41,346 bases of DNA. Origin: a virus. The stretch is taken from positions 1 through 41,346 of IMG/VR virus record IMGVR_UViG_3300046463_000264. One strand, given 5' to 3'. Positions 7,086 to 33,960 of the stretch are shown in pieces (position 1 is the first letter of the stretch; each line of letters begins with the position of its first letter). The translations under genes and the position numbers were made by a program. A model generated the notes under the pieces. That model saw only the letters and a program-made list of their open reading frames with translations, searched no databases and was not told the origin of the DNA.

Positions 7086-7195
7086 ATATATAAAAGAATA
7101 ATCATCTTGATTGTCATCAAGGGGAAAACGGTTTTGAGTTCAACAACAATCAAGTGTGAGGTAACAAAAGCGAGGACGTTCTCCCCTTGTACTTA

Positions 7196-7225
7196 TATGT
7201 CGTACTTGAGGGCCTCAAATCACAA
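7196..7225 (-). promoter_or_regulatory. TTGTGA-class promoter P1 (late structural operon)
   Basis: Minus strand: TTGTGATT at the upstream end, an 18-base spacer after TTGTGA, then GACATATAA preceded by C. It points toward terS, and all head, tail and holin genes down to 30532 lie downstream on the same strand, so it is the best candidate for the main late promoter. Confidence 0.75.
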
Positions 7226-7564: not shown

Positions 7565-7594
7565 TTGTGAATTTACGTTCTTCAATACGACACC
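7565..7594 (+). promoter_or_regulatory. TTGTGA-class promoter P2 (HNH endonuclease)
   Basis: TTGTGAAT, 18 bases after TTGTGA, then GACACCTATA preceded by C. It ends 34 bases before the HNH gene at 7629. Confidence 0.65.
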
Positions 7595-7628
7595 TATACC
7601 GAGAATATCGGGACAGGTGGGAATGTGA

Positions 7629-8328: not shown

Positions 8329-8334
8329 TAAGTT

Positions 8335-8399
8335 AATCAAATAGAAAACAAAGTCTCATCTCGAACCTTGAAAAAGGAGATCAGGTGGGACTTTTTTTG
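8335..8399 (+). ncRNA. Candidate short RNA or leader ending in a terminator
   Basis: From the predicted E1 start, only about 65 bases are transcribed before a strong terminator-like hairpin. AGTCTCAT (8352-8359) pairs with GTGGGACT (8385-8392), an inner CCTT/AAGG stem is possible, and a run of seven Ts follows. This would be a small stable RNA, or an attenuator for the small gene at 8427. No open reading frame fits inside it. Confidence 0.5.
8352..8398 (+). terminator. Rho-independent terminator or attenuator
   Basis: An 8-bp outer stem (two G-U pairs), an inner CCTTGAAAAAGG hairpin and TTTTTTT. It lies between promoter E1 and the small gene at 8427. Confidence 0.7.
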
Positions 8400-8426
8400 T
8401 CCCATTTTTCATTAAGGGAGGATTTA

Positions 8427-8543
8427 ATGTTCAAATTGTGGGGGCGGGGCATCCGTTGTCCACGGGCTGAAACTTCACGTACCCCGGGGGGTTACTTTCA
8501 AAGAAAACTGACAATTCAGAACATTCAATATATTATTAAATAA
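8427..8543 (+). CDS. Small basic protein from a GC-rich patch, unknown
   Basis: A 38-residue frame (MFKLWGRGIRCPRAETSRTP, then GGYFQRKLTIQNIQYIIK) follows a very strong AAGGGAGG ribosome site six bases before its ATG. Bases 8438-8491 are strikingly G- and C-rich (GGGGGCGGGGC, CCCCGGGGGG) in an otherwise AT-rich region. The product is arginine-rich. I do not recognise it. The base composition could reflect an RNA structure rather than the peptide. It lies downstream of promoter E1 and its attenuator-like terminator. Confidence 0.5.
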   Translation: MFKLWGRGIRCPRAETSRTPGGYFQRKLTIQNIQYIIK

Positions 8544-8674: not shown

Positions 8675-9157
8675 CTAAGATACACGTTCACGTTTAACAT
8701 GTTTCATATTCATGTTGGACACTGTACACTGTCCAACGTTCATAATGTTTGCTATATCTCGTTGAGTCAATTTAGTAGTACGAAGTAAAGTAATAATATC
8801 ACGATATACATTATCATTGTATTTATTGTTGTTTGAATGATGTCCGTTATCCCTAGCGTGTTTGACATTATCTAATTGTGTGCACCATTCTAAATTGTTA
8901 ACGTTATTATTCTTTTTATCTAAATCAATATGATTTACTACATCGCAATCACTTGGTTTATCAATGAAGGTTTCTGCAACAGCACGGTGAATATAGAAGT
9001 TATAATTCTTTCCGTTGATCTTATATCCAATTTGTAAATATCCTTTACCGTTGTCACAAGGTTTGCGTATTCGTTTCGTTTTAGCGTGGCGAACATTGCC
9101 TAGATTACTTATTTCATATTTGGATACTTTATTATAAACTTTCCATATTTCTACCAT
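8675..9157 (-). CDS. NUMOD4/HNH homing endonuclease
   Basis: The 160-residue product begins with a NUMOD4 motif (EIWKVYNKVSKYEISNLGNV), continues with an HNH_3-type core (FYIHRAVAETFIDKPSDCDVVNHIDLDKKNNNVNNLEW, where VVNHID carries the catalytic His), and ends with a small helix-turn-helix (LTQRDIANIMNVGQCTVSNM) that would read the target DNA. This architecture is standard for phage SPO1-type homing endonucleases. It overlaps the preceding HNH gene by 7 bases. The ribosome site AGGAGG lies about 12 bases upstream. Confidence 0.9.
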   Translation of the reverse strand: MVEIWKVYNKVSKYEISNLGNVRHAKTKRIRKPCDNGKGYLQIGYKINGKNYNFYIHRAVAETFIDKPSDCDVVNHIDLDKKNNNVNNLEWCTQLDNVKHARDNGHHSNNNKYNDNVYRDIITLLRTTKLTQRDIANIMNVGQCTVSNMNMKHVKRERVS

Positions 9158-9561
9158 GATATATATTTATCCTCCTGTTCTTTGGCTATATTTAGTAATA
9201 CAGATTTAGGTATGTCACCAGTTTCAGCCATAACGTGATGATATTTACATAGACTTATGAGATTGTTATTGTCATACATTCTCCGGATATTTTCAGAAAT
9301 AAAATAAATATGATGAACTTCAATTGTGTGCATATTATATCTGGTATCGGTGTTATATAGTTCACGTATGCAAACCTGACACAATCCTTTGTCACGTTTT
9401 CTTATCTCCAATGATTTACTTCTCCACCGTCTGGTATTACGTAACTTGTCAATGTCAGAACGTTCCTTTGTATAACCCTTGCCGTATTTGGTTTTTGGTT
9501 TTTTAGGACAGTCGAATGTCTTATCGTGTATGTTTCCACAATACGAACATGTCTTTAACAT
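9151..9561 (-). CDS. HNH endonuclease
   Basis: A 136-residue HNH protein. It opens with a CxxC ribbon (CSYCGNIHDKTFDC), has the basic helix RRWRSKSLEIRKRD and CQVC, then the core EVHHIYFI and NNLISLCKYHHVMAE. The second H of each HH pair fits the metal-binding site. It is similar in form to HK97 gp74-like nucleases that aid packaging, but its position with another HNH gene and its own promoter (P3) suggests a mobile nuclease. ATG 9561 follows a GGAAGTG ribosome site. Confidence 0.85.
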   Translation of the reverse strand: MLKTCSYCGNIHDKTFDCPKKPKTKYGKGYTKERSDIDKLRNTRRWRSKSLEIRKRDKGLCQVCIRELYNTDTRYNMHTIEVHHIYFISENIRRMYDNNNLISLCKYHHVMAETGDIPKSVLLNIAKEQEDKYISW

Positions 9562-9583
9562 GGTTTCACTTCCTTTCTGTTCA

Positions 9584-9613
9584 TTTGTCGCAAATAAAAA
9601 AGACCATTCACAA
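9584..9613 (-). promoter_or_regulatory. TTGTGA-class promoter P3 (HNH pair), overlapping a terminator
   Basis: TTGTGAAT, 18 bases after TTGTGA, then GACAAATGAA preceded by GC. The TTGTGAAT box is part of the hairpin that terminates the lipoprotein operon, so terminator and promoter share bases. Confidence 0.65.
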
Positions 9614-10701: not shown

Positions 10702-10730
10702 ATCTTATCATTATCAATTTCTTACGTCAA
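10702..10730 (-). promoter_or_regulatory. Early sigma-A promoter E2
   Basis: TTGACG, 17 bases starting TAAGAA, then TAAGAT. It serves the genes at 10655 and 10047. The four 22-bp repeats lie 50 bases upstream of its -35 box. Confidence 0.7.
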
Positions 10731-12749: not shown

Positions 12750-12778
12750 ATTATATCATGGTAAGAATCTTACGTCAA
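12750..12778 (-). promoter_or_regulatory. Early sigma-A promoter E3
   Basis: TTGACG, 17 bases, TATAAT. The spacer starts TAAGATTCTTAC, giving the same GTAAGA/TCTTAC palindrome as E1. The start of transcription should be near 12743. Confidence 0.85.
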
Positions 12779-13423: not shown

Positions 13424-13452
13424 AGTATAAAACAATCAGAATCTTACGTCAA
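13424..13452 (-). promoter_or_regulatory. Early sigma-A promoter E4
   Basis: TTGACG, 17 bases beginning TAAGATTCTGAT, then TATACT. It drives the four tiny genes 13322 to 12801. Confidence 0.8.
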
Positions 13453-13477: not shown

Positions 13478-14017
13478 TTAATCTCTTACCGTAAAACATA
13501 CGTCAATTATATCATTCACAATTTCCCATTCTTCAGTCTTATTACCTTTGACCAGTGAGTTCTTCCGTGCCCACTTTTCCCACTTGGAAATTTTGTCACG
13601 TAAACCATCCAGATCAATAGGAATTAAATCACTGATTTGAATTTCACCATCAATACCAGTTGAACCAACAATGACCAATTTTCCAGGCTGATCTGTATTG
13701 CCTTCAATGAAAAATGTGGTTGTCCTTTGAAACCTTGCTTGCCTGACAGCTTTCATTGTTTGCCCCCGGTTCATTTTGAATAAAGAACGTTTAAACTCCA
13801 AATTCAATGAATGACCGTCAATTTCAACATGTGCGTCAATGTCAGAAAAAGCAGTCCTCTTTGGTAAAACTTCAGATAGTGGATTGAGTGACCAGAAACC
13901 TTCAATCCATTTTTGAACGCTTTTTATATTGTTCATATTGAAATAAAATTGTTCCAGTTGTTCGCCATTTTCATCCATGACCAAAACAGTTCGTTGTCCA
14001 TGTGCGTCCTTCCTCAT
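13478..14017 (-). CDS. PD-(D/E)XK-type nuclease
   Basis: The core FSDIDAHVEIDGHSLNLEFK followed by RSLFKMNRGQTMKAVRQARF shows the Asp ... Glu-x-Lys pattern of the PD-(D/E)XK nuclease fold, with a Gln downstream. TTTFFIEGNTD is the next strand. Phage members resolve Holliday junctions or trim DNA ends during recombination. It follows the dNMP kinase but has its own promoter P4. An upstream ATG at 14035 would be only about eight bases from the predicted transcript start and lacks a ribosome site, so I prefer ATG 14017, eight bases after GGGG. Specific activity is unproven. Confidence 0.7.
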   Translation of the reverse strand: MRKDAHGQRTVLVMDENGEQLEQFYFNMNNIKSVQKWIEGFWSLNPLSEVLPKRTAFSDIDAHVEIDGHSLNLEFKRSLFKMNRGQTMKAVRQARFQRTTTFFIEGNTDQPGKLVIVGSTGIDGEIQISDLIPIDLDGLRDKISKWEKWARKNSLVKGNKTEEWEIVNDIIDVCFTVRD

Positions 14018-14049
14018 TACAGTAACCCCAATCATTAATTATTTGGTTA

Positions 14050-14079
14050 CATGTCGGAATGAAGACGGAATATTCACAA
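14050..14079 (-). promoter_or_regulatory. TTGTGA-class promoter P4 (nuclease)
   Basis: TTGTGAAT, 18 bases after TTGTGA, then GACATGTAACC preceded by CC. It begins at the T-run of the kinase terminator. Confidence 0.8.
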
Positions 14080-14112
14080 CAAAACAGACAGGATTTAGTT
14101 TCCTGTCTGTTT
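14078..14112 (-). terminator. Terminator built from the end of the kinase gene
   Basis: A perfect 12-bp stem (AAACAGACAGGA with TCCTGTCTGTTT) and 7-base loop, followed by TTTTGTTGTG. The last kinase codons and its stop are inside the hairpin, and the T-run passes directly into promoter P4. A near-copy lies at 14890-14921. Confidence 0.9.
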
Positions 14113-14646
14113 CAAAAGTCCGTCAAGCAAAAATTCAACCTGTTCTTTGGTGTTTTGTAAGTCCAACATGTTCCAAATAATGTATCGACAATGAATAGTT
14201 TCAATCTTGCGTTCTGAAGGGTTCACAGGTTGCCAGCTTTTATCACCCTTTGCCCGGTCTTGTCTCAATTCCTTTGGTGCATAGACTTTTATAAGAATGA
14301 ATCCGTTATCCAGTGCCCATTGTGCTTCATTTGGCTGTCTCACGTCCGTTATGACAAAGTTATCAATCCCAAGTGTTAATGATCTTTTATATTTCAAATT
14401 AACAGCTTTCACCCACATGTCCGTTTCAATCTGACGGCCCAATTCACCAAAGGTTTCATACCATTCACGGGGTTTACCTTCTATAATTGAAGCTTCTGGA
14501 AATGCCGAATACAGTCTATGTTTTAAATCATCACCAAAGGCAAGACGTGTCGTTTGTCCGTGGCCGTTTGTTTGGAGATATGATTTGATCATTTCAAAGA
14601 CAGAATCCTTGCCGACCCTGGTTAGTCCTACCAATGCTATTTTCAT
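14095..14646 (-). CDS. Deoxynucleoside monophosphate kinase
   Basis: The 183-residue product has a P-loop at the N-terminus (MKIALVGLTRVGKDSVFEMI), a LAFGDDLKHRLYSAFPEA substrate-lid region and NFVITDVRQPNEAQW, the ITDVR.PNE motif typical of the phage dNMP kinase family. It phosphorylates dNMPs to dNDPs and feeds the polymerase along with ThyX and the reductase. The start overlaps the stop of the small gene upstream (ATGA). Its last codons (KQTGN) form the terminator stem. Confidence 0.88.
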   Translation of the reverse strand: MKIALVGLTRVGKDSVFEMIKSYLQTNGHGQTTRLAFGDDLKHRLYSAFPEASIIEGKPREWYETFGELGRQIETDMWVKAVNLKYKRSLTLGIDNFVITDVRQPNEAQWALDNGFILIKVYAPKELRQDRAKGDKSWQPVNPSERKIETIHCRYIIWNMLDLQNTKEQVEFLLDGLLKQTGN

Positions 14647-14828: not shown

Positions 14829-14859
14829 AACAATCATCCTTTTAATTTCGTCTTGGCTA

Positions 14860-14889
14860 TGTGTCGATACGGGACTTAAAAATTCACAA
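14860..14889 (-). promoter_or_regulatory. TTGTGA-class promoter P5 (kinase operon)
   Basis: TTGTGAAT, 18 bases after TTGTGA, then GACACATAGCC preceded by TC. It follows directly on a terminator, as P4 does. Confidence 0.75.
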
Positions 14890-15525: not shown

Positions 15526-17340
15526 TTACTTCTCCATATAAACCTTTGCTGTCCTACCATTAACCTTCTTGTCCTTCACCACAAGTCCAAGTTCAATCTG
15601 GACTGATTCTTTCAATATTTTCTTAGATTGAACAGCACCTTCGCCAAAGTTTTCTTCGGCCCACGTTACATATTCTTCATAAATTTCTGGTGGTCTTTTT
15701 CCAATGAAATCTTCTTTCACCCGATCACGTATAAATGTCAAAGTCCCGTTGTTTTCTTCATGATATTTTTCATTATAATCTGTCACCTTTTCCGAATCTG
15801 TGAATCCGTGTTTTTCATATAATCTAAAGTAAGCTTCAAAGATGAGTTTCAACCAATATTCCAATGCTTCCGGGGTTGTAAGCTTTGTTATAAATGTCGG
15901 GTCTTTCTTTGTTGGTTTTGTAAACATAGGCATCCAGCAAACCCGTCTTTTGTATGAATCAGACTTTTCAAAGGACTTCAACAGGTGATTTGAAGTAAAG
16001 ATCAAAGACGTTGTGACAACCGTTTCTGTTGATTGTTCAAAGAGTCTTCTCATTGCCACAAAGTCGCAAGTGCTGACGTTTTTTAATACCTTCATTTGCT
16101 TTTCATTTATTGCCCGGTCTTCTATATCGTCACCCAGGTTTACCAGCTTATTGGCCATGCTGGTGAAGTATGATTCCTTTGTCATTTCTTCAGGTGACAA
16201 TGAAGCACAATTTTCAGCACCAAGAATCTTTCTAATGATTGTCAAAAGCGTTCCTTTACCATTTCCACCGTCACCAATGAAGATGAAGAATTTTGCAAGT
16301 TGCCTTTTGAATTCAGCATTTGTTATTAAAGTATGGGCCATTGATTCAAGAACTAACTTTCTGTAATTAGCGTCACCTTCTGTCAGTTTGTCAAGATAGT
16401 TGTCAACCATTTCAACAGGTTCAGCGTCCGGGTTGTATTCCACATTAACAAAATACGGTGTGAAGTCAGTTGAATCTATTTCAATGAATTGGCCGTTTCG
16501 CAGGATACCATTTTTGAATTTAATGTCAAACCCGTTTTCTGGTTCAACAACATTGTAAAGCCTGTACTCCATTTGCTTTATGACTTCATCAATATACCTT
16601 GTTTTCTGTCCTTCCAGTTGTTCGGAAATCAGTGTTTTGAATTCGCTGTCAGCTTTGTATCTTATTCCGTCATAGGTGTAAAGAATGTCACCATACTTGC
16701 ACACCCTTAATTTCATAATAAGTTGTTTTGCAACTTCAGCTTCACCATCTTTTTCAGCAAGGATTTCTTCTTCCCGTGTGACAACTTGGAATTCGTCTTC
16801 ATTGAGTGGTTGTGCAAAAACGTCAGTATTGATGAATCTTAAGACTTGTTTGCTGTTTTCAAGACTGTTTATTTTAAACTTCCAGGCATGAAGTTTCTGA
16901 TTTCTTCCGTCCCCATCATCCAAACCAAGTAAGCTGTCACCTTTGATGGGCTTGAAAAAAGCTGGTAAATCTTCCCGAACACCTTCATTGTCAATGTCAC
17001 GTATTTTCCCATTTTGCTTTATGGTGATTGCTTTTGTATTCTTTATGTGTTTAAATTCTACCGGGAAACCAAAGGCACACAATGACATTGCACCCTTGAA
17101 CGCTTTTGGTTTCTTGAAGTAAATATGTGCACCACGATTGGTCCACACGACCTGACTGTTAATGTTAAATATTCTTATCAAGTTTCTGATTGAATCCTTT
17201 TTTAAGCTGTCTATATCGATTATCAAATCTTCTTCTGTCAGGACATAACCAGCGTCCGTGAAGCTGTCATGAAACTCTGACACGTCAGCCAGCTTTGAAG
17301 CGTACTTCTCACCGTTTTTGAATTCCATATAAATAGGCAT
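15526..17340 (-). CDS. Primase-helicase: PrimPol-like domain fused to SF3 helicase
   Basis: This 604-residue protein starts and unwinds replication. The N-terminal third resembles archaeo-eukaryotic primases: LIIDIDS (D42, D44) as the first metal motif, RGAHIYF (H72) as the second and VEFKHIKNTKAITI as the third. A D5-type middle domain follows (FDIKFKNGILRNGQFIEI). The SF3 helicase has Walker A GDGGNGKGT at about 356-364, Walker B KLVNLGDDIED near 398-408 and the sensor SLIFTSNHLL. ATG 17340 follows GGGGG by seven bases. It has its own promoter (P6) and would partner the family B polymerase upstream. Confidence 0.92.
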   Translation of the reverse strand: MPIYMEFKNGEKYASKLADVSEFHDSFTDAGYVLTEEDLIIDIDSLKKDSIRNLIRIFNINSQVVWTNRGAHIYFKKPKAFKGAMSLCAFGFPVEFKHIKNTKAITIKQNGKIRDIDNEGVREDLPAFFKPIKGDSLLGLDDGDGRNQKLHAWKFKINSLENSKQVLRFINTDVFAQPLNEDEFQVVTREEEILAEKDGEAEVAKQLIMKLRVCKYGDILYTYDGIRYKADSEFKTLISEQLEGQKTRYIDEVIKQMEYRLYNVVEPENGFDIKFKNGILRNGQFIEIDSTDFTPYFVNVEYNPDAEPVEMVDNYLDKLTEGDANYRKLVLESMAHTLITNAEFKRQLAKFFIFIGDGGNGKGTLLTIIRKILGAENCASLSPEEMTKESYFTSMANKLVNLGDDIEDRAINEKQMKVLKNVSTCDFVAMRRLFEQSTETVVTTSLIFTSNHLLKSFEKSDSYKRRVCWMPMFTKPTKKDPTFITKLTTPEALEYWLKLIFEAYFRLYEKHGFTDSEKVTDYNEKYHEENNGTLTFIRDRVKEDFIGKRPPEIYEEYVTWAEENFGEGAVQSKKILKESVQIELGLVVKDKKVNGRTAKVYMEK

Positions 17341-17371
17341 ATCATAACCCCCAACTTTGTTTACTTGGTTA

Positions 17372-17401
17372 CATGTCGGAAAAGGGGTAAAATATTCACA
17401 A
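17372..17401 (-). promoter_or_regulatory. TTGTGA-class promoter P6 (primase-helicase)
   Basis: TTGTGAATATT, 18 bases after TTGTGA, then GACATGTAACC preceded by CC. The second box and downstream bases match P4 over 13 bases. It lies seven bases after a terminator. Confidence 0.8.
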
Positions 17402-17454: not shown

Positions 17455-17604
17455 TTAAACCATATCACTCATGGATGGCGTGTTATTGATTGCGTATACC
17501 TCTAAATATGTTTCAATTCTTTCGAGTTTTTCCCAATCTTCCAAGCCTCTATCCTTAATGACTTTACTTATAGCTGTCCATAAATCATCATATTTTTTAT
17601 CCAT
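17455..17604 (-). CDS. 49-residue protein, unknown
   Basis: MDKKYDDLWTAISKVIKDRG then LEDWEKLERIETYLEVYAIN, mostly helical. A strong GAGGTGAG ribosome site decides this start; the reading frame stays open further upstream through the end of the MazG-like gene, but without a start signal. It is the last gene of the polymerase operon. Not recognised. Confidence 0.65.
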   Translation of the reverse strand: MDKKYDDLWTAISKVIKDRGLEDWEKLERIETYLEVYAINNTPSMSDMV

Positions 17605-17626
17605 TTTCTCACCTCGCAATATTTGT

Positions 17627-18004
17627 CTAATACGCTTTACCACCGTGCTTGTAATCTCTTGTTTTATTAAACTCCATTTTCTCCAATATTGCCGTTTCCA
17701 GATCAAGACCTTTTTCACCACAAAAGTCAAAGATTCTTATAATAACGTCGGCAAGTTCTTCAGTCACCCGGTCTTTTCCTTCATGCCGTCTATCAGCTTC
17801 CATTGCTTCAGCCACTTCACCAACAATCAGCATTAACAAAGTGCCCGTTTCCCGTTTTTCATCATGCCATCCTTTTGACTTTGCTGTTTGGTATGCTTCT
17901 TCGCACAGATGAGTAATAGTCGGGTGAACGTGATCAAGAATTGTCACCTTGTTATCTGAATTCATTAAACGTGCCCATTCTTTTGCAAATTCCTGGTGCG
18001 ACAT
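17627..18004 (-). CDS. MazG-like nucleotide pyrophosphohydrolase
   Basis: The 125-residue product has the all-alpha NTP-PPase signature: ITHLCEEAYQTAKSKGWHDE, GEVAEAMEADRR and RVTEELADVIIRIFDFC. The E-E ... E-x-x-E ... E-L-A-D acidic residues bind magnesium. Such enzymes cut nucleoside triphosphates to monophosphates; phage versions may clean up dNTP pools or lower the host alarm nucleotide. ATG 18004 lies two bases after the previous stop. The last codons (Lys-Ala-Tyr-stop) plus the next ribosome site recur as a relic at 13339-13366. Confidence 0.85.
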   Translation of the reverse strand: MSHQEFAKEWARLMNSDNKVTILDHVHPTITHLCEEAYQTAKSKGWHDEKRETGTLLMLIVGEVAEAMEADRRHEGKDRVTEELADVIIRIFDFCGEKGLDLETAILEKMEFNKTRDYKHGGKAY

Positions 18005-18249: not shown

Positions 18250-19934
18250 GCTGTCCATCTTTCAAGCTTCTTGTTTATGACTGACAGAAAATGATTGAGA
18301 TCAACAATCTTTTCAAAACCTTCAAGTTCATCACAACTTCCGTTCCACACAAACATTCTTTCTGGTAAGTCTGGAAATCTGACAAGTCCATCATCATGTC
18401 TCTTTTTGTAAAGACAAAGACCTTCTTTCTTTGTTGGGAAAATACGATTGACCTTATTGTATTTGTTCCCGTCAGCGTCAAACGTTCCTTTATACGTTCC
18501 ACCAGCTTGAATGATATATTGATACAGTTTAGGTTCGTCAACATGTTCAATCAATGAAGTCACAACAGATTTTCCATACAAGAGATAGTCAACAATGGCA
18601 ATGTCCATTATCCGGGCACTGTTATTCTTGAAAGGTGTGTCTTTGTGATACCTTCCCACGTCACCACCCTTGACTTTTATTTTTCCGTTTGGATAAACAG
18701 CAATATAGTTGTTCACGTCTTTTTGAATGAAAGTTGCAAATTCATCTTCTTCTAATTGAAGATTGAACATTTTTTGCCAGTCTTCCCAAACTTGTTTATA
18801 TCCTTCATGTGCTGGAACAAACCCAACACCGTCAGTATTTATGTTGATAATTTCATGACCGTCTTCATGAAGCATTTTGCAAAGTGTGAATAGTGCAATT
18901 TGACCATATGCAATAACTGAAAATAACGCTTTTGGATTATAAAGACTTGAATATTGACTACCTAAGTTACCATAAACTGAATTCAATATAAGCTTCAAAG
19001 CTTCAGAAAGAATCTTGTCAACGTGCTTGACCGACAAACGTCTTTCAAGAATTTCCCTATACTTTGCCGTGAAGTCCCCCAAAACATTCAGAATCAAAAT
19101 AATGTTAGGGTACATTGAAGCAACGTCCAGAAGTTTCATCTTCTTCACTTTTTTCTTCTTCTTGTGTACACCGTGAAGACCACCACCACCAAATTCAATC
19201 TTGCAGCCAAACATTTCAATAACCACTTTTGCGTCTTTTCCCTTTGCATTTATGTCAGCTTTTCGGAACATGTTCGCAACGTCTTCTGGTACAAGATCAA
19301 GCAACGACAAGTCACTGAAATCTTCACCGTTCAAACGAATATCGGACCATTTTGGAAGTTTTTTGTTTCCCAAGATTGCATTGGCTGATAGCGTTGTGGT
19401 GTTCCACTTCTCACCCGTTCCGACCATATCAACAAGACTTTGTTTAGGTTGAAAGTAAGAAGCTTCTCGCATTTCCCAAATAGCAATAACCATATCTGTG
19501 TCATATTCGCAATAGTCAACAGCTTCAGCAATTTCTTCTTCTGTCAATGGTCTGTCAATGTCAAACGGAACTGAACTTTCAAGAATCCGCTTTCCAAGAT
19601 TTCCTTCAATCTTTTTCAAACCTGGAAGACTGTTGTCAATTTGCTGGAAACAATCAAGACTTCTAAACCGGGTTTTTGGACGCTGTTTCTGACCACTAAT
19701 AATTCTGTCATTCAAGTCTTTTATTTGCTGTTGTGACCAACCAGACAACATTGCGTCAATTATGTGATCATCATACCAGTAGTTGTTATAACCAATCAGT
19801 GTGTGACCTTCAATGTGATCAGCAAGACCAGCAAAACCGTCAGTGTTGTAAAACACCTTCTTGTTCCCTTCATGGTCTTTGATTACAACAAAGCTGTTAT
19901 ACTTGAAGACTTCAATGTCAAAGAATAGGTTCAT
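18246..19934 (-). CDS. Short family B DNA polymerase
   Basis: The 562-residue product has an N-terminal 3'-5' exonuclease: FFDIE (D6, E8), LIGYNNYWYDDHIID and YCEYDTD. The polymerase part has GGGGLHGVH, motif A LLDVASMYPNI, motif B KLILNSVYG, motif C as NINTDGVGF and the KVKGGDVGRY motif. The usual DTDS of motif C is NTDG here; the second Asp, which is the metal ligand, is kept. Only about 45 residues separate motifs A and B, so the fingers are very short. I start at ATG 19934, which overlaps the methyltransferase stop (ATGA); an ATG at 19946 would add four residues. No terminal-protein gene was recognised. Confidence 0.93.
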   Translation of the reverse strand: MNLFFDIEVFKYNSFVVIKDHEGNKKVFYNTDGFAGLADHIEGHTLIGYNNYWYDDHIIDAMLSGWSQQQIKDLNDRIISGQKQRPKTRFRSLDCFQQIDNSLPGLKKIEGNLGKRILESSVPFDIDRPLTEEEIAEAVDYCEYDTDMVIAIWEMREASYFQPKQSLVDMVGTGEKWNTTTLSANAILGNKKLPKWSDIRLNGEDFSDLSLLDLVPEDVANMFRKADINAKGKDAKVVIEMFGCKIEFGGGGLHGVHKKKKKVKKMKLLDVASMYPNIILILNVLGDFTAKYREILERRLSVKHVDKILSEALKLILNSVYGNLGSQYSSLYNPKALFSVIAYGQIALFTLCKMLHEDGHEIININTDGVGFVPAHEGYKQVWEDWQKMFNLQLEEDEFATFIQKDVNNYIAVYPNGKIKVKGGDVGRYHKDTPFKNNSARIMDIAIVDYLLYGKSVVTSLIEHVDEPKLYQYIIQAGGTYKGTFDADGNKYNKVNRIFPTKKEGLCLYKKRHDDGLVRFPDLPERMFVWNGSCDELEGFEKIVDLNHFLSVINKKLERWTA

Positions 19935-20527
19935 AGTGCACCCCATTGGTCAGCCATTGCTTGTGCTATTCCTTCAAACGTTTTTGCACGATTTTTCTGC
20001 CTATCTTTTCCACCTTTGTTGAACCAGTTACCAGATGTCCTGGTACTTTCCCTTATGTCTACAACATTAGTAGATTGTAATTTCGGAAGATTTTTCAACC
20101 AAAGACAAGTTCTTTTTTGGAATGGTTCACCAAATTGAAACGGCTGCACTATCTGGTCATAAGGTTGTAATTCATAAACTTTACTTGGTACAGGGTTTTC
20201 AACGGCAATTTTTTCAATGGGTAGATTCATTAAAAGCATGAAAAATTCTTTTGCTTCCATTCCTTTTGAAAATCTATCTTCATTTAGTACACCTTTGGGA
20301 TATAAATGTCTTGCACCAGCGTTACTCAAATATGTGCAAGGTGGGTGGCAAATTGCCAAATCGAATTGCTGCCAATATTCCATTGGTAAAGCACTTGCGT
20401 CACCTTGAACATGTGGACCAAAATCAGATTCACTTGGGATAATGTCAAAGCTGATTGCGTCATGACCGGCTTTGATAAAAGCGTCACGCACCGTTCCAGA
20501 GTATTCACAAATTACTGCAACTTTCAT
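19931..20527 (-). CDS. C5-cytosine-methyltransferase-like protein
   Basis: The 198-residue product has an N-terminal cofactor motif (VAVICEYSGTVRDAFIKAGH), the loop CHPPCTYLSNAGARH with the Pro-Pro-Cys catalytic site, and IAVENPVPS with the Glu-Asn-Pro motif. Together these point to a small phage C5 DNA methyltransferase. The target-recognition region is short. It could modify phage DNA against host restriction, but relatives of this size are often only predicted enzymes. ATG 20527 has AAGGAG eight bases upstream. It is the first gene of the polymerase operon behind promoter P7. Confidence 0.8.
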   Translation of the reverse strand: MKVAVICEYSGTVRDAFIKAGHDAISFDIIPSESDFGPHVQGDASALPMEYWQQFDLAICHPPCTYLSNAGARHLYPKGVLNEDRFSKGMEAKEFFMLLMNLPIEKIAVENPVPSKVYELQPYDQIVQPFQFGEPFQKRTCLWLKNLPKLQSTNVVDIRESTRTSGNWFNKGGKDRQKNRAKTFEGIAQAMADQWGAL

Positions 20528-20567
20528 TTTCAGCACTCCTTCAATTGTTTAATTGACTTTCTGGTTA

Positions 20568-20597
20568 TAAGTCGCTTGAAGGAATATAGATTCACAA
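20568..20597 (-). promoter_or_regulatory. TTGTGA-class promoter P7 (methyltransferase-polymerase operon)
   Basis: TTGTGAAT, 18 bases after TTGTGA, then GACTTATAACC preceded by GC. A terminator ends just before it. Confidence 0.8.
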
Positions 20598-21286: not shown

Positions 21287-21335
21287 GAATTTTCCTTCTT
21301 TCTTGTATTGGTATGGTTTTGGCTTGATACGTTTA

Positions 21336-21365
21336 TATGTCGCACTTAAACCCCTAAAATCACAA
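21336..21365 (-). promoter_or_regulatory. TTGTGA-class promoter P8
   Basis: TTGTGATT, 18 bases after TTGTGA, then GACATATAAAC preceded by GC. It fits between the stop of the DUF1351 gene and ATG 21286. Confidence 0.8.
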
Positions 21366-22227: not shown

Positions 22228-22368
22228 TCAAACACCCCTTGTGGTCATAGACCAAAGATATTTATTAAGACAATCTTCACAACAAAATTTTCCATAAGGC
22301 TTTTTGACGGGCGATATGTCTTTCAAATCCTGGTAACACCATTCACAATAATTTGTGTTGCATGTCAT
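22228..22368 (-). CDS. 46-residue zinc-ribbon protein
   Basis: MTCNTNYCEWCYQDLKDISP then VKKPYGKFCCEDCLNKYLWS contains CxxC and CCxxC pairs, enough for one zinc site. Its start overlaps the stop of the metallohydrolase gene (TGATG), so it is probably coupled to it. Function unknown. Confidence 0.65.
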   Translation of the reverse strand: MTCNTNYCEWCYQDLKDISPVKKPYGKFCCEDCLNKYLWSMTTRGV

Positions 22369-22991
22369 CAATAAAACCTACTTGACATGTGCAATTCAAT
22401 AAACTTTGAATCAACAGACCGTCTATTCATATAGTAGAAAGCTTTGGCCGTTTGCGTGGACATATGTCTTTTTGCAGAAGCTATAACGTCATATCCAAAG
22501 TGTCTCTTGTCAGCAAGGTCAAGAAGCTTTTTAACATCATGATTGGATTCAAGGAATAGATAATCATATGTTTTTATTGGTGCGTGTCTCAAATCACTTG
22601 TATCCGTGCAATAGATGATTGTATTTCCTTTCATTGCAAAAACAAACCCATAGCACAATACATCATGAATGGCCTTGAAAGGTGTAACAACATAACCGTC
22701 ATGAATTTCAAAAGGAATATTTTCATTGACTACTTCAATAAAAGCTTCTTTCTGGAAAGACTGGACAACTTCATAATTTCCGTAAATCTTGATGTGTGGA
22801 AACAACTTGACAATCTGTTTCAGTGTTGCAACCCGGACATGATCGCTATGAATATGAGTAATGAGAATGGTTTTTATATCATATAACTTTGATTTTATGA
22901 GTTTAAAAGGAACACCAATGTCAATCATAATGTCTTCGATGATTACACAGTTTCCACGACTTCCGGTGCTGATTATCTCGTATTCTAACAA
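22368..22991 (-). CDS. Metallo-beta-lactamase-fold hydrolase
   Basis: The 207-residue product opens EIISTGSRGNCVIIEDIMID, has the zinc motif ILITHIHSDHVRV and later TIIYCTDTSDL and FLESNHD, the usual metal ligands of the fold. It resembles phage and YycJ-like members that cut nucleic acids. The YycJ-type GSRGN opening supports a DNA- or RNA-processing role. The start is TTG 22991, overlapping the end of the HNH gene by 7 bases. Confidence 0.85.
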   Translation of the reverse strand: MLEYEIISTGSRGNCVIIEDIMIDIGVPFKLIKSKLYDIKTILITHIHSDHVRVATLKQIVKLFPHIKIYGNYEVVQSFQKEAFIEVVNENIPFEIHDGYVVTPFKAIHDVLCYGFVFAMKGNTIIYCTDTSDLRHAPIKTYDYLFLESNHDVKKLLDLADKRHFGYDVIASAKRHMSTQTAKAFYYMNRRSVDSKFIELHMSSRFY

Positions 22992-23428
22992 ATGCCTTGC
23001 ACCTTCTTTTTATAATGTTTTTTATGTCTTATAGAATTGCATTTTTTACACTCTCTCCAACCTTCTTTCGTAAAGCGAGTGTTTTCTAACGTATATTCAT
23101 GTCCATGTTTACAGAACTTTTGTGATTTCTTCAATTTACCCGTCACTTCACCACCCACCCCACGTCGAACATTTTCACCACGTGTCACTACTTCCAAGTG
23201 GTCCGGGTTGCAACAAATTCTATTTTTGCAAAGATGATCAATGACAAGTCCGTTTGGAATTTCACCTTTTAAAACAATATACGCAAGACGGTGTACGCGT
23301 CTTTCTTTAAAGTGTTTAGACGTAATGAGTCCATAACCGTTTTCATTTGTACAGCCAGTCCATTCCCAGCAACCGTTGTCAGCTTCAAAGTCTATCTTGT
23401 CTAAAAAATTGGATAAACTATTTAACAA
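22985..23428 (-). CDS. HNH homing endonuclease
   Basis: The 147-residue product has CWEWTGCTNENGYGLI, ERRVHRLAYIVLKGEIPNGL and VIDHLCKNRICCNPDHLEVV, the HNH_3-type core with the ViDH catalytic pair. A C-terminal ribbon (FCKHGHEYTLENTRF, CKKC) may help bind DNA. It is first in the P9 operon, upstream of the metallohydrolase, a common place for a homing gene to insert. The start is TTG 23428 with AAGGAG 11 bases upstream. Confidence 0.88.
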   Translation of the reverse strand: MLNSLSNFLDKIDFEADNGCWEWTGCTNENGYGLITSKHFKERRVHRLAYIVLKGEIPNGLVIDHLCKNRICCNPDHLEVVTRGENVRRGVGGEVTGKLKKSQKFCKHGHEYTLENTRFTKEGWRECKKCNSIRHKKHYKKKVQGIC

Positions 23429-23467
23429 TGATTTTTCTTCTCCTTCCTTTAATCGGCTTTCTGTTTT

Positions 23468-23497
23468 TATGTCGTACTAATGGGAAGGAATTCACAA
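23468..23497 (-). promoter_or_regulatory. TTGTGA-class promoter P9
   Basis: TTGTGAAT, 18 bases after TTGTGA, then GACATAAAAAC preceded by AC. It serves the HNH, metallohydrolase, zinc-ribbon and DUF1351 genes. Confidence 0.8.
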
Positions 23498-23858: not shown

Positions 23859-23888
23859 TTGACGGGTACGCAACCATTCAAGTATAAT
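23859..23888 (+). promoter_or_regulatory. Early sigma-A promoter E5
   Basis: TTGACG, 18 bases, TATAAT, upstream of the gene at 23953. It lacks the GTAAGA element of E1-E4. Confidence 0.7.
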
Positions 23889-23930: not shown

Positions 23931-23952
23931 TACATATAAGGTGTTGAAACAA

Positions 23953-24552
23953 ATGGAAATCTTGACGAGTGCTGAACTTATATTCGACAACGGAAACCAA
24001 CATATGACAACAAAATTCCGTTTTTTAGGCAAAGCTGAACAAACTGTTGTAAAGTACATAATTTCAAAGCTTCGTAAATACCACGGCCAGTTTTTTGAAA
24101 AGTATAAATCCATTGCTGAAGAATTAAAGATCAGCACCAAAACTGTTCAACGTGCCGTCAAACATGCTGAACAACTTGCCATTTTCCAAGTTTCAGAACG
24201 TTTTGAACCAACACTTGATGGTAAAATGAGAAAGACAACAAACCTTATCAACCTATTACCTTATGCACCTTTTGAATTCATTAATGGTGTGATTAAGGTT
24301 GTCAGGACTGTCAAGAAACATGCTGTGAAGCTGGTTGACATGGCAAAGAAAGCACTGGAAGGAAAGACAAAAGAATCACCAGCACCGTCAAAGAAGCTGT
24401 ATTCCAAAAAGCCTATTCGCACGGAATTACTACCAGACTGGTTTGAGGAAGATACAAATGAAGAATCACCAGCAATACCAACACCAACATATGCTGATCT
24501 TGAAGCAAAGAAACGGGCAATTGAAGAAAAGTTGAAAGCTTTCAGAAACTAA
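23953..24552 (+). CDS. Winged-helix protein, possible replication initiator
   Basis: The 199-residue product has a winged helix at about 35-90 (YHGQFFEKYKSIAEELKIST then KTVQRAVKHAEQLAIFQVSE). A basic segment (VRTVKKHAVKLVDMAKKALE) and a charged tail follow. Such HTH_36-like proteins act as initiators or regulators in Firmicutes phages and plasmids. Here it stands apart from the replication operon, next to an AT-rich region. ATG 23953 lies nine bases after AAGGTG; a GTG at 23941 overlaps that site. The initiator role is a guess. Confidence 0.65.
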   Translation: MEILTSAELIFDNGNQHMTTKFRFLGKAEQTVVKYIISKLRKYHGQFFEKYKSIAEELKISTKTVQRAVKHAEQLAIFQVSERFEPTLDGKMRKTTNLINLLPYAPFEFINGVIKVVRTVKKHAVKLVDMAKKALEGKTKESPAPSKKLYSKKPIRTELLPDWFEEDTNEESPAIPTPTYADLEAKKRAIEEKLKAFRN

Positions 24553-24803: not shown

Positions 24804-24833
24804 TTGTGATTATGGTGGTGTGTTTACGACAGA
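24804..24833 (+). promoter_or_regulatory. TTGTGA-class promoter P10 (thyX-nrdJ operon)
   Basis: TTGTGATT, 18 bases after TTGTGA, then GACAGATAA preceded by AC. A second TTGTGA ten bases further upstream has no partner box. Confidence 0.65.
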
Positions 24834-24861
24834 TAATCACCAAGGCAAAACAGGAAAGGAA

Positions 24862-25724: not shown

Positions 25725-27938
25725 ATGACAGAACGTCTTCAAGGTTTTCACAGAAAACTATATTTAACTCGATACGCACGCAAGTCAATGGACAAAGCAA
25801 AATACATTATTCCAGGTTCAACAGTTGTCACACTGGTCAAGGAAGGAAAATATCCGATTCGTGAAATTGCAACGGTCAAGTCAGTGAAAGACAACATTGT
25901 ATATATGGAACTCCAAACGGCTGACGGTTTTAATTTTCAAATTGGTGACAGCTTCACACAACGAATTGAACTGGTTGACGCACTACTTGAAAGTGAATAT
26001 GAACAGACTGCAAACCGTGTTGCAATGAGAATTGCCAGTGTAGAACCAACAGCAAAACAATATGAGAAGTCCTACAAGGCTTTCAAACATGTCATTGAAA
26101 ACTTCCTTCTTGTACCTTCTGGACGTATCTTGACCGGTGCTGGTGATGAAGCTGAAGTGACATTGTTCAACTGTTATGTGGTAGCCGTTGACCCTGCCCC
26201 CTGGTCAATAGAGAAAGGCCGGGATAGTAGACAGGCTATTGCTTATCATCAAGCCAAAATAGAAGAAATAATGGCCCGTGGTGGTGGTGTTGGAACTAAC
26301 CTGGACGTGTTCAGACCACGTTATTCTGGACTTTCCAAAACAAAAGGTCAAAGTGCTGGTGCTGTCTTTATTGGCAACAGGTTCAGTGGTTCCACAGAAT
26401 TCATCAATCAAGGAAACAGACGTGGTGCACAAATGCTGACTATTTCCGATTGGCACGGTGATGTATTTTATACCAATGATATAAATTCACCTGATTACAA
26501 TGAAGACTTCATTGGTGCAAAAAGGAAACCGGGATTCATGGAAGGTAACAACTCTTCAGTCCTTATCTCTGATGAATTTATGTTCGCTGTTGAAAATGAT
26601 CTTGATTGGACTTTGAGACACCCAAATACTAAACACCCAAAATATGATTCTGATTGGGATGGTGATCTTTACAAGTGGATTAATAAATATGGTCAACTTA
26701 AAGATTCAGTAACAATAATTCGTACTATCAAAGCCCGTGACATGTGGGACAAGTTGCAAGAATCAAACCATGCAAGTGCTGAACCGGGAATCATCTTTAT
26801 TGATGAGGTGAACAAACAACATAATGGTTGGTATCTTGGAAAGGTTAATGCTACAAACCCATGTGGGGAACAACCTATTTTGCCGAATTCTACTTGTAAT
26901 CTATCAGCAATTAATTTTGGACGTATGTTGAAAGTGGTTGGTGAAGACGATTTTGGTAAATTGTATGAAATTGATTGGAATCTATTAAAATCAACAATTC
27001 ATACTGGAATAAGATTTCTGGACAATGTCATTGACGCAACATTCTATTTTGACAAGGACATGAAAGAATGGCAACAAGGTGAACGACGTGTTGGTTTAGG
27101 TGGTTTAGGTGTCGCCGACCTCTTTATTGCTTTACGTGTTCCATATGGTTCAGAAGAAGGAAATGAAATCTTTGAAAAGTTGATGAAGTTTTTACGGGAT
27201 GAATCTTACAAAGCTTCTGTTGATCTTGCCAAAGAGAAGGGTTCATTTCCATTCTTTGACCGGGTGAAATACTCTCAATCTGGTTTTGTCAAGCGTCTTC
27301 CAAGAGAAATCAAAGAAGCAATATGGACGCATGGAATAAGAAATTTAACGTGCAACACATTTGCACCAACAGGAACAACCGGGTCTTTGACACCTTCCCT
27401 TTTGGACATTAACGGTTCAGTCTCAACGGGAATTGAACCCCATTTTGCAATGAAGTATAACCGTCTTTCAAGGATAGGTTCAACGGTACAATATGCTGGT
27501 GTGGCAAAGGCATTTATGGATAACAACCCTACTTTGACCGAACTTCCAGACTATTTTGTTGGTTCAATGGATTTACAACCAATTCAACATGTTACTGTCC
27601 AGGGAATTGCACAAAAGTATATTGATAGTGCAATCAGTAAGACTGTAAACGCACCAAACAATTATACAGTTGAACAATGTGCTGAAGTTTACCTTCAATT
27701 GTATAAACATGGTTGTAAAGGTGGGACGATTTACCGGGATGGAAGCCGGGATGAACAGATTTTAAGTCTTGCTGAAAACAATGAACAAGTTGAAAATGAA
27801 GCACCCGTTGTTGAGGAAGTAAAGAAGAAAGGTAAATATGATAATTGGGAATGTGGCAATTGTGGAAGCACCCATTTCCATATGGTTGAAGGTTGCCCCC
27901 AATGTGACGATTGTGGAAGTCAAAGCTGTTCAATATAA
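25725..27938 (+). CDS. nrdJ: Class II (B12-dependent) ribonucleotide reductase
   Basis: The 737-residue product makes deoxynucleotides using adenosylcobalamin. Key residues are C150 in FNCYV and C391 in STCNL as the redox pair, and N378, C380 and E382 in NPCGEQ as the radical site. FAPTGTTGSL is the phosphate-binding loop. The C-terminal tail has CGNCGS, CPQCDDCGSQSCSI: a zinc-ribbon-like part plus the cysteines that recharge the active site. About residues 25-85 (YIIPGSTVVTLVKEG onward) form an extra beta-rich N-terminal domain. B12 dependence lets it work without oxygen and without a small subunit. It is co-transcribed with thyX. Confidence 0.95.
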   Translation: MTERLQGFHRKLYLTRYARKSMDKAKYIIPGSTVVTLVKEGKYPIREIATVKSVKDNIVYMELQTADGFNFQIGDSFTQRIELVDALLESEYEQTANRVAMRIASVEPTAKQYEKSYKAFKHVIENFLLVPSGRILTGAGDEAEVTLFNCYVVAVDPAPWSIEKGRDSRQAIAYHQAKIEEIMARGGGVGTNLDVFRPRYSGLSKTKGQSAGAVFIGNRFSGSTEFINQGNRRGAQMLTISDWHGDVFYTNDINSPDYNEDFIGAKRKPGFMEGNNSSVLISDEFMFAVENDLDWTLRHPNTKHPKYDSDWDGDLYKWINKYGQLKDSVTIIRTIKARDMWDKLQESNHASAEPGIIFIDEVNKQHNGWYLGKVNATNPCGEQPILPNSTCNLSAINFGRMLKVVGEDDFGKLYEIDWNLLKSTIHTGIRFLDNVIDATFYFDKDMKEWQQGERRVGLGGLGVADLFIALRVPYGSEEGNEIFEKLMKFLRDESYKASVDLAKEKGSFPFFDRVKYSQSGFVKRLPREIKEAIWTHGIRNLTCNTFAPTGTTGSLTPSLLDINGSVSTGIEPHFAMKYNRLSRIGSTVQYAGVAKAFMDNNPTLTELPDYFVGSMDLQPIQHVTVQGIAQKYIDSAISKTVNAPNNYTVEQCAEVYLQLYKHGCKGGTIYRDGSRDEQILSLAENNEQVENEAPVVEEVKKKGKYDNWECGNCGSTHFHMVEGCPQCDDCGSQSCSI

Positions 27939-27951
27939 GGAGGATGATAAA

Positions 27952-28098
27952 ATGATAACTAACAAATTCATTTTAATATTATGTTCATTGAAACCAAGAT
28001 TACTAGAAAAGAGGCATGTTAACTTTAGATATTGGGAAATCAAAGTTTTCTGGTTGGGAAAAAAGAGAGTTTTAAAGATCGAGGACACCAGTTTTTAA
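27952..28098 (+). CDS. 48-residue basic protein, unknown
   Basis: MITNKFILILCSLKPRLLEK then RHVNFRYWEIKVFWLGKKRV. A perfect AAGGAGG site precedes its ATG. It is basic and beta-like. It is the last gene of the thyX-nrdJ operon and not recognised. Confidence 0.6.
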   Translation: MITNKFILILCSLKPRLLEKRHVNFRYWEIKVFWLGKKRVLKIEDTSF

Positions 28099-28127
28099 AT
28101 ATGTATTCAATACAAGATCAACACTAC

Positions 28128-28158
28128 AATAACCCCTATTTTTAGGGGTTATTTTTTT
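28128..28158 (+). terminator. Terminator of the thyX-nrdJ operon
   Basis: AATAACCCCTA and TAGGGGTTATT form an 11-bp stem with a T-rich loop and a T-run. P11 starts 18 bases later. Confidence 0.92.
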
Positions 28159-28175
28159 GTCTTTTTTAATTTCTG

Positions 28176-28205
28176 TTGTGAATCCCTGACTTTCAAAGCG
28201 ACATA
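28176..28205 (+). promoter_or_regulatory. TTGTGA-class promoter P11 (sigma-like gene)
   Basis: TTGTGAAT, 18 bases after TTGTGA, then GACATATAACC preceded by GC: a full match to the consensus. If the sigma-like protein reads this class, its own gene is under positive feedback. Confidence 0.8.
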
Positions 28206-28245
28206 TAACCAGATATTTGACGCAAGTTAGTCAAAACCTTGTCAA

Positions 28246-28315
28246 GTTATATCTTCATTAGAATTCAGTTAGAGTCAGATTACAAAAAAGTGTCGAATTC
28301 TAATGAACTTATAAC
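28246..28315. repeat. Large inverted repeat in the sigma-gene leader
   Basis: Two 21-base arms (28246-28266 and 28295-28315) match with two adjacent mismatches; the inner 13 bases (TTCATTAGAATTC with GAATTCTAATGAA) are perfect. The 28-base spacer has no T-run. In RNA this is a very stable hairpin; in DNA it could be a site for a dimeric protein. Confidence 0.8.
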
Positions 28316-28435
28316 GTCAAAAAGACCTTATTCGCCTTAATTGGAAAGTTTATCCATGGTGGCCATACCACTTAGAAGTTAAGATAAGATTAGTAAGAAA
28401 GTTATACAAAAATATAACCAAAGGGGAATGTAAAT

Positions 28436-28996
28436 ATGACTATTGCCTTAATACCAGTTGACGAATTTGGACAAGTTATTGTGTTTGAAACAACACGTTC
28501 AGCAAGAAAGATAGTTGCCAAGTATGGTATGAACCCAGAAGAATCAACGGAATTGACGTCTTTTCTCACAACGGAAATCTGGTCTGAACTACATAAAAAA
28601 AGAGAATTGCAAACATTGGCAATGGTCAGAAGATTAATAAAATTACGTCAAGTAGATTACTTCCGTAACAAGGGAAGGTTTGACAATCAGACCCCTTTTT
28701 GTGCCTTTGATCATGATTCAGAAAATTCTGGTGACGGTCAATCATCAAAAACTATGACTTTAGAAACTAGGGTCAAATCTAACGTAAACGTTGAAAGTGA
28801 AGTTCTTATGTCCAATGACTTACAATCTTTCCTTCTATCATTAAATACCCGACAACGGCAAATCTTAAACCTAATTAATCAAGGTTATGGGAATAATGAA
28901 ATTTGTCAGATTCTTGACGTTTCCATTAATACACCTAAAAACACCATGAAAAAAGTCAGAGAATTGGCACTTGCCTTTGGATTGAAAATTGCTTGA
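28436..28996 (+). CDS. Sigma-factor-like protein with region 4 helix-turn-helix
   Basis: The 186-residue product has a C-terminal sigma-70 region 4: LNTRQRQILNLINQGYGNNE then ICQILDVSINTPKNTMKKVR, at about 130-180. The middle part (STELTSFLTTEIWSELHKKR then ELQTLAMVRRLIKLRQVDYF, RNKGRF) resembles the helices of region 2. Between them is a linker of about 45 residues. Length suits a small ECF-type or phage sigma factor. It has a strong AAAGGGG site and its own TTGTGA-class promoter. The promoter family in this genome is its obvious target, although an anti-sigma or transcription activator role is possible. Confidence 0.7.
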   Translation: MTIALIPVDEFGQVIVFETTRSARKIVAKYGMNPEESTELTSFLTTEIWSELHKKRELQTLAMVRRLIKLRQVDYFRNKGRFDNQTPFCAFDHDSENSGDGQSSKTMTLETRVKSNVNVESEVLMSNDLQSFLLSLNTRQRQILNLINQGYGNNEICQILDVSINTPKNTMKKVRELALAFGLKIA

Positions 28997-29684: not shown

Positions 29685-29851
29685 TGTTAACAATTGTCAT
29701 TGGTTTATTTATTGGTTGGTTGTTTCACTTTGTCGGACTTGCTTACCTTTTTCATATTTTATTAGGCTTTAGTCTTCAAGATTACTACTTTCTTTGGTTT
29801 TTCTTGGGACTGACAAGTGTTGTTGCAAGACATTTTAGGAGGGAAAAATAA
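29684..29851 (+). CDS. 55-residue two-helix membrane protein (holin-like)
   Basis: GTG start, then LTIVIGLFIGWLFHFVGLAY and LFHILLGFSLQDYYFLWFFL, two hydrophobic stretches, and a basic end (ARHFRREK). It overlaps the endolysin start (TAATG) and has a GGTGG site. Size, topology and position fit a small holin or antiholin, while a clearer holin lies on the other strand at 30532. The role is inferred from position. Confidence 0.6.
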   Translation: MLTIVIGLFIGWLFHFVGLAYLFHILLGFSLQDYYFLWFFLGLTSVVARHFRREK

Positions 29852-30489
29852 TGACAATGAATATATCAGAAAACGGAATTGCTTTAATCAAGAAATTTGA
29901 AGGTCTGGAACTTCGTGCATACAAACCAGTGCCACAAGAAACCTACTACACAATTGGATATGGTCATTGTGGACAGGACGTACAACAGCACCAAGTCATT
30001 ACAGAAGAACAGGCTGACAGTTTTCTAAGACATGATCTTGCAACGGCCGTCACTGGTGTAAATGAATTGGTCAAAGTTCCAGTAAATCAAAACCAATTTG
30101 ACGCACTTGTTTCATTCAGCTTCAATTGTGGATATCAAGCTTTAAAAGGTTCAACTTTACTTTCTGACATTAATGCAAAGAATTATGCCAGTGCCTCACT
30201 GGAATTTGGAAAGTGGGTTCATGGTTCTGGTGGTGTAATTCTTCAAGGTTTGGTTGATAGAAGGGAAGCCGAAAAGGAATTGTTCTTGAAACCTGTTCCA
30301 CACCCTATATTGTTGGAAGTGGGTTCAAAAGGTGAAGACGTTGCTTTTGTTCAAAGGTTTTTAGGGATACCAGATGATGGAATTTTTGGTGAACAAACCA
30401 AAGAAGCTGTTATCAAGTATCAACAAATGCGAGGACTTACACAAGACGGAATTGTTGGGCCTGTCACCTGGAATGAAATGCACTCATAA
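29851..30489 (+). CDS. Endolysin: GH24 muramidase plus peptidoglycan-binding domain
   Basis: The 212-residue product opens with a T4-type lysozyme domain: IALIKKFEGLELRAYKPVPQ with the catalytic Glu (E17), and YYTIGYGHCG with Thr34. The classic second acid after AYK is Pro here, as in the Firmicutes subgroup with an extended AYK.VP.E.YYT loop. NQFDALVSFSFNCG is the next family motif. From about 150, EVGSKGEDVAFVQRFLGIPD then GIFGEQTKEAVIKYQQMRGL is a peptidoglycan-binding repeat. It cuts the cell wall glycan at lysis. No signal peptide, so it needs a holin. Confidence 0.95.
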   Translation: MTMNISENGIALIKKFEGLELRAYKPVPQETYYTIGYGHCGQDVQQHQVITEEQADSFLRHDLATAVTGVNELVKVPVNQNQFDALVSFSFNCGYQALKGSTLLSDINAKNYASASLEFGKWVHGSGGVILQGLVDRREAEKELFLKPVPHPILLEVGSKGEDVAFVQRFLGIPDDGIFGEQTKEAVIKYQQMRGLTQDGIVGPVTWNEMHS

Positions 30490-33480: not shown

Positions 33481-33960
33481 TCAACATATTACCTGATTCA
33501 ATGGGTAGTATGTCAACATTTCCCCCGGTGCAAGGTTACCAAGAAATTCATTGTTCTTTCTTTGGACGTTTCCATAAATTAGTGATTCATCAACAAGACC
33601 AGAACAAATGTAATGACCTTTTTCTTCAAAACCTTGGAAATTGTGAAGAAATTCAAAGCGAATTAATAAACCAGCAATCTTTTCATAATCATACTTTGTG
33701 CCAATTTGGGATGTTGCAAAACTTATAATTTTTGCTTTCTGTTGTGTGGTCAAACCTTCTATTCTATAAACATCAAAACCAGATTCAGAAGAACAAGGAA
33801 TTTCTCTTGTCCGTATAAATCCATTTGCTTCAATCAAGTCACCATTTCCCACGGCCAAAGCACAATGAACATATGGTGATTTTGTCACGTCCTTGATTGC
33901 TTCTTGGATAAAAGAACCATTTGAATGAAACATAAGAACGTCACAGGATTGAATTACCAT
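33481..33960 (-). CDS. Permuted NlpC/P60 (YiiX-like) hydrolase
   Basis: In this 159-residue product the catalytic His comes first (YVHCALAVGNGDLIEA) and the catalytic Cys late (HYICSGLVDESLIYG), with GTKYDYEKIAGLLI between. That order marks the circularly permuted NlpC/P60 group. It may cut peptidoglycan peptides or esters at infection. It is embedded in the tail genes and overlaps the gene before it. Confidence 0.8.
   Translation of the reverse strand: MVIQSCDVLMFHSNGSFIQEAIKDVTKSPYVHCALAVGNGDLIEANGFIRTREIPCSSESGFDVYRIEGLTTQQKAKIISFATSQIGTKYDYEKIAGLLIRFEFLHNFQGFEEKGHYICSGLVDESLIYGNVQRKNNEFLGNLAPGEMLTYYPLNQVIC

Follow-up and report, generated by a model that had tools for sequence, protein, structure and literature searches.

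A probable ECF-like sigma factor and the dispersed promoter class that it may read in a 41-kb phage genome

The window, which is a complete IMG/VR virus record of 41,346 bases, carries an open reading frame whose product is, judged from its sequence, most likely a small ECF-like sigma factor composed of a sigma2 and a sigma4 domain. Upstream of this gene an intrinsic terminator closes the thyX–nrdJ unit, and is followed by a promoter of a recurrent class, TTGTGA-N17-CGACATATAA, and then by a long leader containing an imperfect hairpin. A further site of the same class lies directly behind the stop codon. An earlier sequence-only reading had described the site in front of the gene as a perfect member of the TTGTGA class some 220 bases upstream, and so it proved. 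The positions of these features, and of the other promoters considered below, are read directly from the sequence and are collected in Table 1.

Table 1. Positions of the sigma factor gene, of the promoters and of neighbouring features in the window.
Feature	Position	Strand	Remarks
Structural-operon class promoter	7193..7225	-	terminase, portal, protease, capsid (7025 to 28)
Class promoter	7565..7597	+	endonuclease VII/HNH gene (7629-8303)
Class promoter	9581..9613	-	HNH gene (9151-9561)
Class promoter	14047..14079	-	185-aa gene, no assigned function (13478-14035)
Class promoter	14857..14889	-	small gene and dNMP kinase (14095-14646)
Class promoter	17369..17401	-	DNA primase (15526-17340)
Class promoter	20565..20597	-	DNA methyltransferase (19931-20536)
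Class promoter	21333..21365	-	PHROG 6479 gene (start probably 21286)
Class promoter	23465..23497	-	HNH gene (22985-23428) and metal-dependent hydrolase (22368-22991)
Class promoter	24804..24836	+	thyX (ATG 24862) and nrdJ (25725-27938)
Self-promoter of sigma gene, TTGTGA-N17-CGACATATAA	28176..28208	+	perfect class member; 227 nt to ATG
Class promoter directly after sigma stop codon	29019..29051	+	precedes small genes and endolysin (29851-30489)
ECF-like sigma factor gene (probable)	28436..28996	+	186 aa; plausible ribosome site present
Sigma protein layout	sigma2 ~aa 5-90; unstructured linker ~91-125; sigma4 ~aa 126-183		
Long imperfect hairpin in sigma leader	28239..28322	+	28-nt arms, 82% complementary
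Intrinsic terminator closing thyX-nrdJ unit	28128..28160	+	upstream of sigma promoter
Sigma-A-like promoter TTGACG-N18-TATAAT	23859..23888	+	precedes HTH gene (23941-24552)
Early sigma-A-like family TTGACGTAAGA...TATAAT	12761-12778	-	
	13435-13452	-	
	10713-10730	-	
	8300-8317	+	

The region 4 helix-turn-helix (HTH) that had been proposed at about residues 130-180 is placed at residues 128-175 by Sigma70_r4_2, with a match of 2.3e-5, just below the Pfam cut-off. GerE/LuxR scores about equally on this HTH, which also has a likeness to LuxR/NarL, so region 4 alone is no proof of a sigma factor. Indeed, the protein might instead be a small HTH activator, RinA/ArpU/LtrC-like or of the LuxR type, which binds TTGTGA and helps the host sigma-A; late regulators of such a kind are frequent in Gram-positive phages (PMC13123087). 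However, the N-terminal 100 residues, searched alone, matched SigI sigma models (1.5e-4). The region 2-like helices claimed ahead of the HTH are further backed by TIGR02937 sigma70-ECF (5.2e-6, residues 20-176 aligned to model positions 11-159 of 165) and by the PHROG 1740 RNA polymerase sigma factor profile (1.2e-7 over residues 47-176). SigN, a validated sigma factor, matches PHROG 1740 with similar strength (1.9e-7); a direct hhalign comparison of the phage protein with SigN gave no usable similarity. The arrangement of sigma2, linker and sigma4 without sigma3, at ∼20 kDa, is the ECF/group IV architecture. Because the family scores fall under the curated cut-offs (26.2 bits against 42.9 for TIGR02937, and 24.4 against 25.7 for PF08281), we call the protein ECF-like rather than a member of the family.

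Structure prediction, which had been suggested as a check, pointed the same way. The AlphaFold2 (AF2) models from two sequences were poor, with a pLDDT of 56 for the phage sigma and 63 for its homologue in phage G001 (see below), and the low-confidence model of the former has helices at 8-78, a disordered linker at 83-131 and an HTH at 129-180. Yet when this first model was compared with the PDB by Foldseek, sigma factors made up the top 22 of 22 matches, and the best matches of the G001 homologue were likewise sigma factors. The best E value was ∼0.01, and no match of either model passed 0.001.

The TTGTGA class comprises 12 sites in the window with a single fixed spacer. A PWM built from ten sites, all of them among those subsequently scored, returned the 12, with identical spacing, at a score of at least 12, as against 0.07 expected per shuffle, and the next match reached 7.4 bits. 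Exact matches to TTGTGA-N18-GACATATAA numbered four, where none was expected. In an unbiased count of pairs of a 6-mer, a gap and a 5-mer, TTGTGA-17-CGACA was the top motif of the window with 11 copies; shuffles gave 4-10, the 10 being a poly-T run. The -10 core CGACA is present in 11/12 class sites. The sites precede replication, nucleotide, terminase-capsid-tail and lysis genes as well as the sigma gene itself, and so stand before most gene groups of the phage. The gene order suggests that the structural operon does not stop at the end of the record but, once the two ends are joined, takes in the tail genes (41242 to 30532). Viral contigs were also searched with the promoter itself, giving one match in each of three contigs that have no sigma homologue, which we took as chance.

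None of the 12 class sites has a sigma-A -10 at a spacer of 16-18, the best reaching 3/6. The class therefore has what is expected of the cognate promoter of an ECF factor, namely a bipartite form with a fixed spacer, distinct from that of sigma-A. Its layout, with CGAC in the -10 and this spacing, is similar to that of ECF promoters, for instance those of Bacillus subtilis sigma-X, and the class could accordingly be read by an alternative sigma factor of the host, the phage protein doing something else; the comparison with relatives, given below, makes this very unlikely. The promoters also bear on the activator explanation. No TATAAT-like hexamer occurs at a spacer of 16-18 in any of the 18 sites examined for comparison with late activators, and the invariant block is CGACA. 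The RinA/ArpU/LtrC proteins are likewise small HTH proteins that turn on packaging, structural and lysis genes, but they act with sigma-A at one promoter, which keeps its TATA box, whereas here there are 12 dispersed promoters that are not of the sigma-A type; the phi13 regulator, for example, needs a sigma-A TATA box and upstream repeats, a layout that differs from the present one (PMC13123087). We thus regard an activator as improbable, and hold with good confidence that the 186-residue protein is a sigma factor and that it recognises the TTGTGA class.

Several further features were seen in the structural operon. The late-operon leader contains a tRNA-like element at 6990-7090 (-), with a T-arm GTGGG-TTCGATT-CCCAC and a stem GTGCTTGT/ACAAGCAC, although no tRNA is called there by ARAGORN. 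Some 560 nt of leader precede the terminase small subunit, and the cos site may lie within them. The start of this subunit (6587-6640 (-)) is probably a CTG at ∼6630 (LARPTKPVDVLAKNL...), which has a good ribosome site upstream, rather than the TTG start of the ORF list. The gene at 33481-33960 (-) matches PHROG 1128, ‘enoyl-CoA hydratase/carnitine racemase-like’ (1.1e-29), which is an unexpected annotation between tail genes.

No close relative of the sigma factor was found in INPHARED phages, plasmids or GTDB genomes, and the sole homologue came from IMG/VR, in phage G001 (IMGVR_UViG_2643221702_000002), which also has a related nrdJ. The G001 sigma is 39% identical to the present one and matches TIGR02937, TIGR02985 and PHROG 1740. 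Its ORF begins with a near-perfect N-terminal tandem duplication (L002:9110-9260, SKTFDAKVLNLDTKSCN twice), and its true start may be further in. There are no TTGTGA...GACATATAA sites in G001, which has a class of its own, TTGTGA-N17-GGATTAGAT, with the same -35 and the same spacer but a different -10. All six copies of GGATTAGAT in G001 lie 17 bases after TTGTGA (five) or ATGTGA (one), and the sites precede polymerase, nrdJ, lysis and structural genes. A class site follows directly on the sigma stop codon in both phages (29019 here, L004 -8330 in G001).

The two proteins differ in a manner that parallels their promoters. Identity is 64% in region 4, where SINTPKNTMKK is unchanged, and 28% in region 2 (Fisher p = 2.8e-5), the pattern to be expected were the -35 recognised by region 4 and the -10 by region 2. 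This co-variation, which rests on one pair of phages, the homologue being the only one known, therefore ties the protein to the class more firmly than proximity does. It also argues against a host alternative sigma factor, since the G001 -10 differs in step with region 2 of the sigma while the -35 stays, and related phages without the sigma gene lack a comparable class. Among six phages with related replication genes, Sigma70_r4_2 was unmatched or matched short fragments only, and no comparable two-block promoter class was found in Listeria phages P35, P40 and LM 4-11-1, Staphylococcus phage HHU-22, Enterococcus phage vB_CECAV_04 or G002, the motif scan covering ∼21 kb each of G002 and LM 4-11-1. 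Candidate classes in P40 and P35 proved to be local tandem repeats. P40 also has short tandem 48-bp repeats (AATCTTTGA...ACGGATTC) at two places far apart, L007:2166-2240 and 17566-17662, in opposite orientation. With the phage protein as the reader of the class, we lean slightly towards a modular rewiring, in which the sigma4/-35 half would have stayed fixed and the sigma2/-10 half changed (CGACATATAA versus GGATTAGAT) over a dispersed set of promoters.

Sigma-A-like promoters, namely the TTGACGTAAGA...TATAAT family and the site at 23859, are confined to early-type units without class sites, so that the genome looks two-tiered, with sigma-A serving early genes and the phage sigma later ones. 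By their positions, cognate promoters stand before non-early genes and sigma-A promoters before early ones, as would be expected of a phage sigma factor of the 7-11 gp47 / phiEco32 gp36 kind, and the two tiers would presumably follow one another in time. Two sites of the TTGACGTAAGA family have a palindrome, GTAAGANTCTTAC, between the -35 and the -10, a possible operator, and the same two are also alike in an A/T-rich stretch behind the -10. At 8300-8400 (+) an early-type promoter has a strong hairpin with a T-run no more than ∼60 nt behind it, which could give a short early RNA or act as an attenuator; beyond it, at 8440-8490, lies a GC-rich stretch of a kind unusual in the present genome.

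How the first sigma molecules are made is less obvious. In agreement with the sequence-only reading, no convincing sigma-A promoter precedes the sigma gene, nothing in 27900-28436 scoring above 8/12. That reading had offered read-through from the nrdJ terminator as one source of first copies. This is incomplete: because thyX–nrdJ is itself behind a site of the same class (24804), nrdJ read-through would be circular as a bootstrap, and unprimed transcription must therefore start further upstream. The nearest strong sigma-A-like candidate for such transcription toward the sigma gene is the promoter at 23859, which appears a better source than nrdJ read-through.

The leader hairpin is real, with arms longer than the 21 bp first claimed. 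It folds with -19.8 kcal/mol, compared with -9.3 ± 2.5 in shuffles, none of 300 being as stable, although arms of at least 21 nt with at most four mismatches are not very rare (three in the window, 0-3 per shuffle). The leader is also long, measuring 227 nt where most class sites have 19-46 nt. These two properties would suit a sigma factor whose expression is held back by its leader, through attenuation or a hidden ribosome site, as had been suggested. However, the hairpin has no U-tract, ends ∼100 nt before the ribosome site and leaves the predicted accessibility of the Shine-Dalgarno sequence equal with and without it, so that we rejected it as a terminator or as a ribosome-site blocker. 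Rfam gave no family for the leader, with chance-level microRNA models only, and for a stem-loop before the sigma gene of Salmonella phage 7-11 mRNA stabilisation was proposed (PMC8948821). Holding-back by the leader is thus unlikely; a role of the hairpin in stabilising the sigma mRNA, or as a processing signal on it, is more probable than repression. In G001 the folding of the sigma leader exceeds chance only slightly (z -1.8), and no class site occurs in the ∼600 b before the sigma gene, so neither leader folding nor the self-promoter is conserved. A promoter of its own in the regulon, a common though not universal ECF trait, is accordingly found here and absent in G001.

Together these observations suggest the following scheme. 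The early block at ∼8.3-13.5 kb, together with the HTH gene at 23.9 kb, would be transcribed with host sigma-A, and leaky or read-through transcription would supply the first sigma molecules. The 186-residue sigma would bind the core of the host RNA polymerase and direct it to the 12 TTGTGA-N17-CGACATATAA promoters, region 4 reading the -35 TTGTGA and region 2 the -10 CGACA. The self-promoter at 28176 would then amplify the sigma by positive feedback, and the amplified sigma would switch on replication, nucleotide, structural and lysis genes. Since the sigma gene has a self-promoter of its own class, the feedback is likely, if somewhat less certain than the identity of the sigma. Of the autocatalytic switch held back by its leader that was first proposed, the sigma factor and the self-promoter thus stand and the hold-back does not; the locus is probably a self-amplifying switch by which the phage passes from its early genes to later ones.

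A phage sigma factor with cognate promoters and positive feedback is a known kind of regulator, and a few other viruses do likewise. To our knowledge, few phage sigma factors have mapped cognate promoters. The one described here has a single close relative found so far, whose promoter code, as read from the two genomes, is half conserved. Xpf of prophage PBSX, by its description, is similarly a small group IV (sigma2 and sigma4) positive control factor of a Gram-positive system (PMC10141391), but it is not known to have a global promoter class that includes replication genes. SigN (ZpdN) of the B. subtilis plasmid pBS32 is also ECF-like, with a self-activating promoter and a match to PHROG 1740, and controls replication and nucleotide genes of its element; it differs in its promoters (TTTACG...AGATATAA), in being served also by LexA-repressed and by weak sigma-A promoters, and in a regulon that largely excludes phage structural genes (PMC6751061).

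Compared by features, the closest precedent appears to be SaPh711_gp47 of the phiEco32-like Salmonella phage 7-11, a phage sigma with a region 4 and a promoter class GTAAtg-(16)-aCTA before late genes (PMC8948821). There too no sigma-70 promoter was found for the sigma gene, and priming by read-through with positive feedback was proposed (PMC8948821). The two systems share the bipartite class, the proposed feedback and the pre-sigma hairpin, and differ in the Gram-negative host of 7-11, in the promoter sequences, and in the place of the feedback promoter, which in 7-11 is P48, in front of gene 48 (PMC8948821), and in the present phage is a class site immediately ahead of the sigma gene itself. 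The compact sigma of the present phage comes with a possibly orthogonal promoter set, and G001 provides a second, half-changed code, so that -10 and -35 specificity could be tested by domain swaps between two small proteins; if the rewiring is true, the pair provides a natural test case for the joint change of a phage sigma factor and its regulon. The authors of the 7-11 study predicted further sigma/promoter pairs (PMC8948821), and the pair described here fits that prediction, in a 41-kb phage whose class spans replication, virion and lysis genes.
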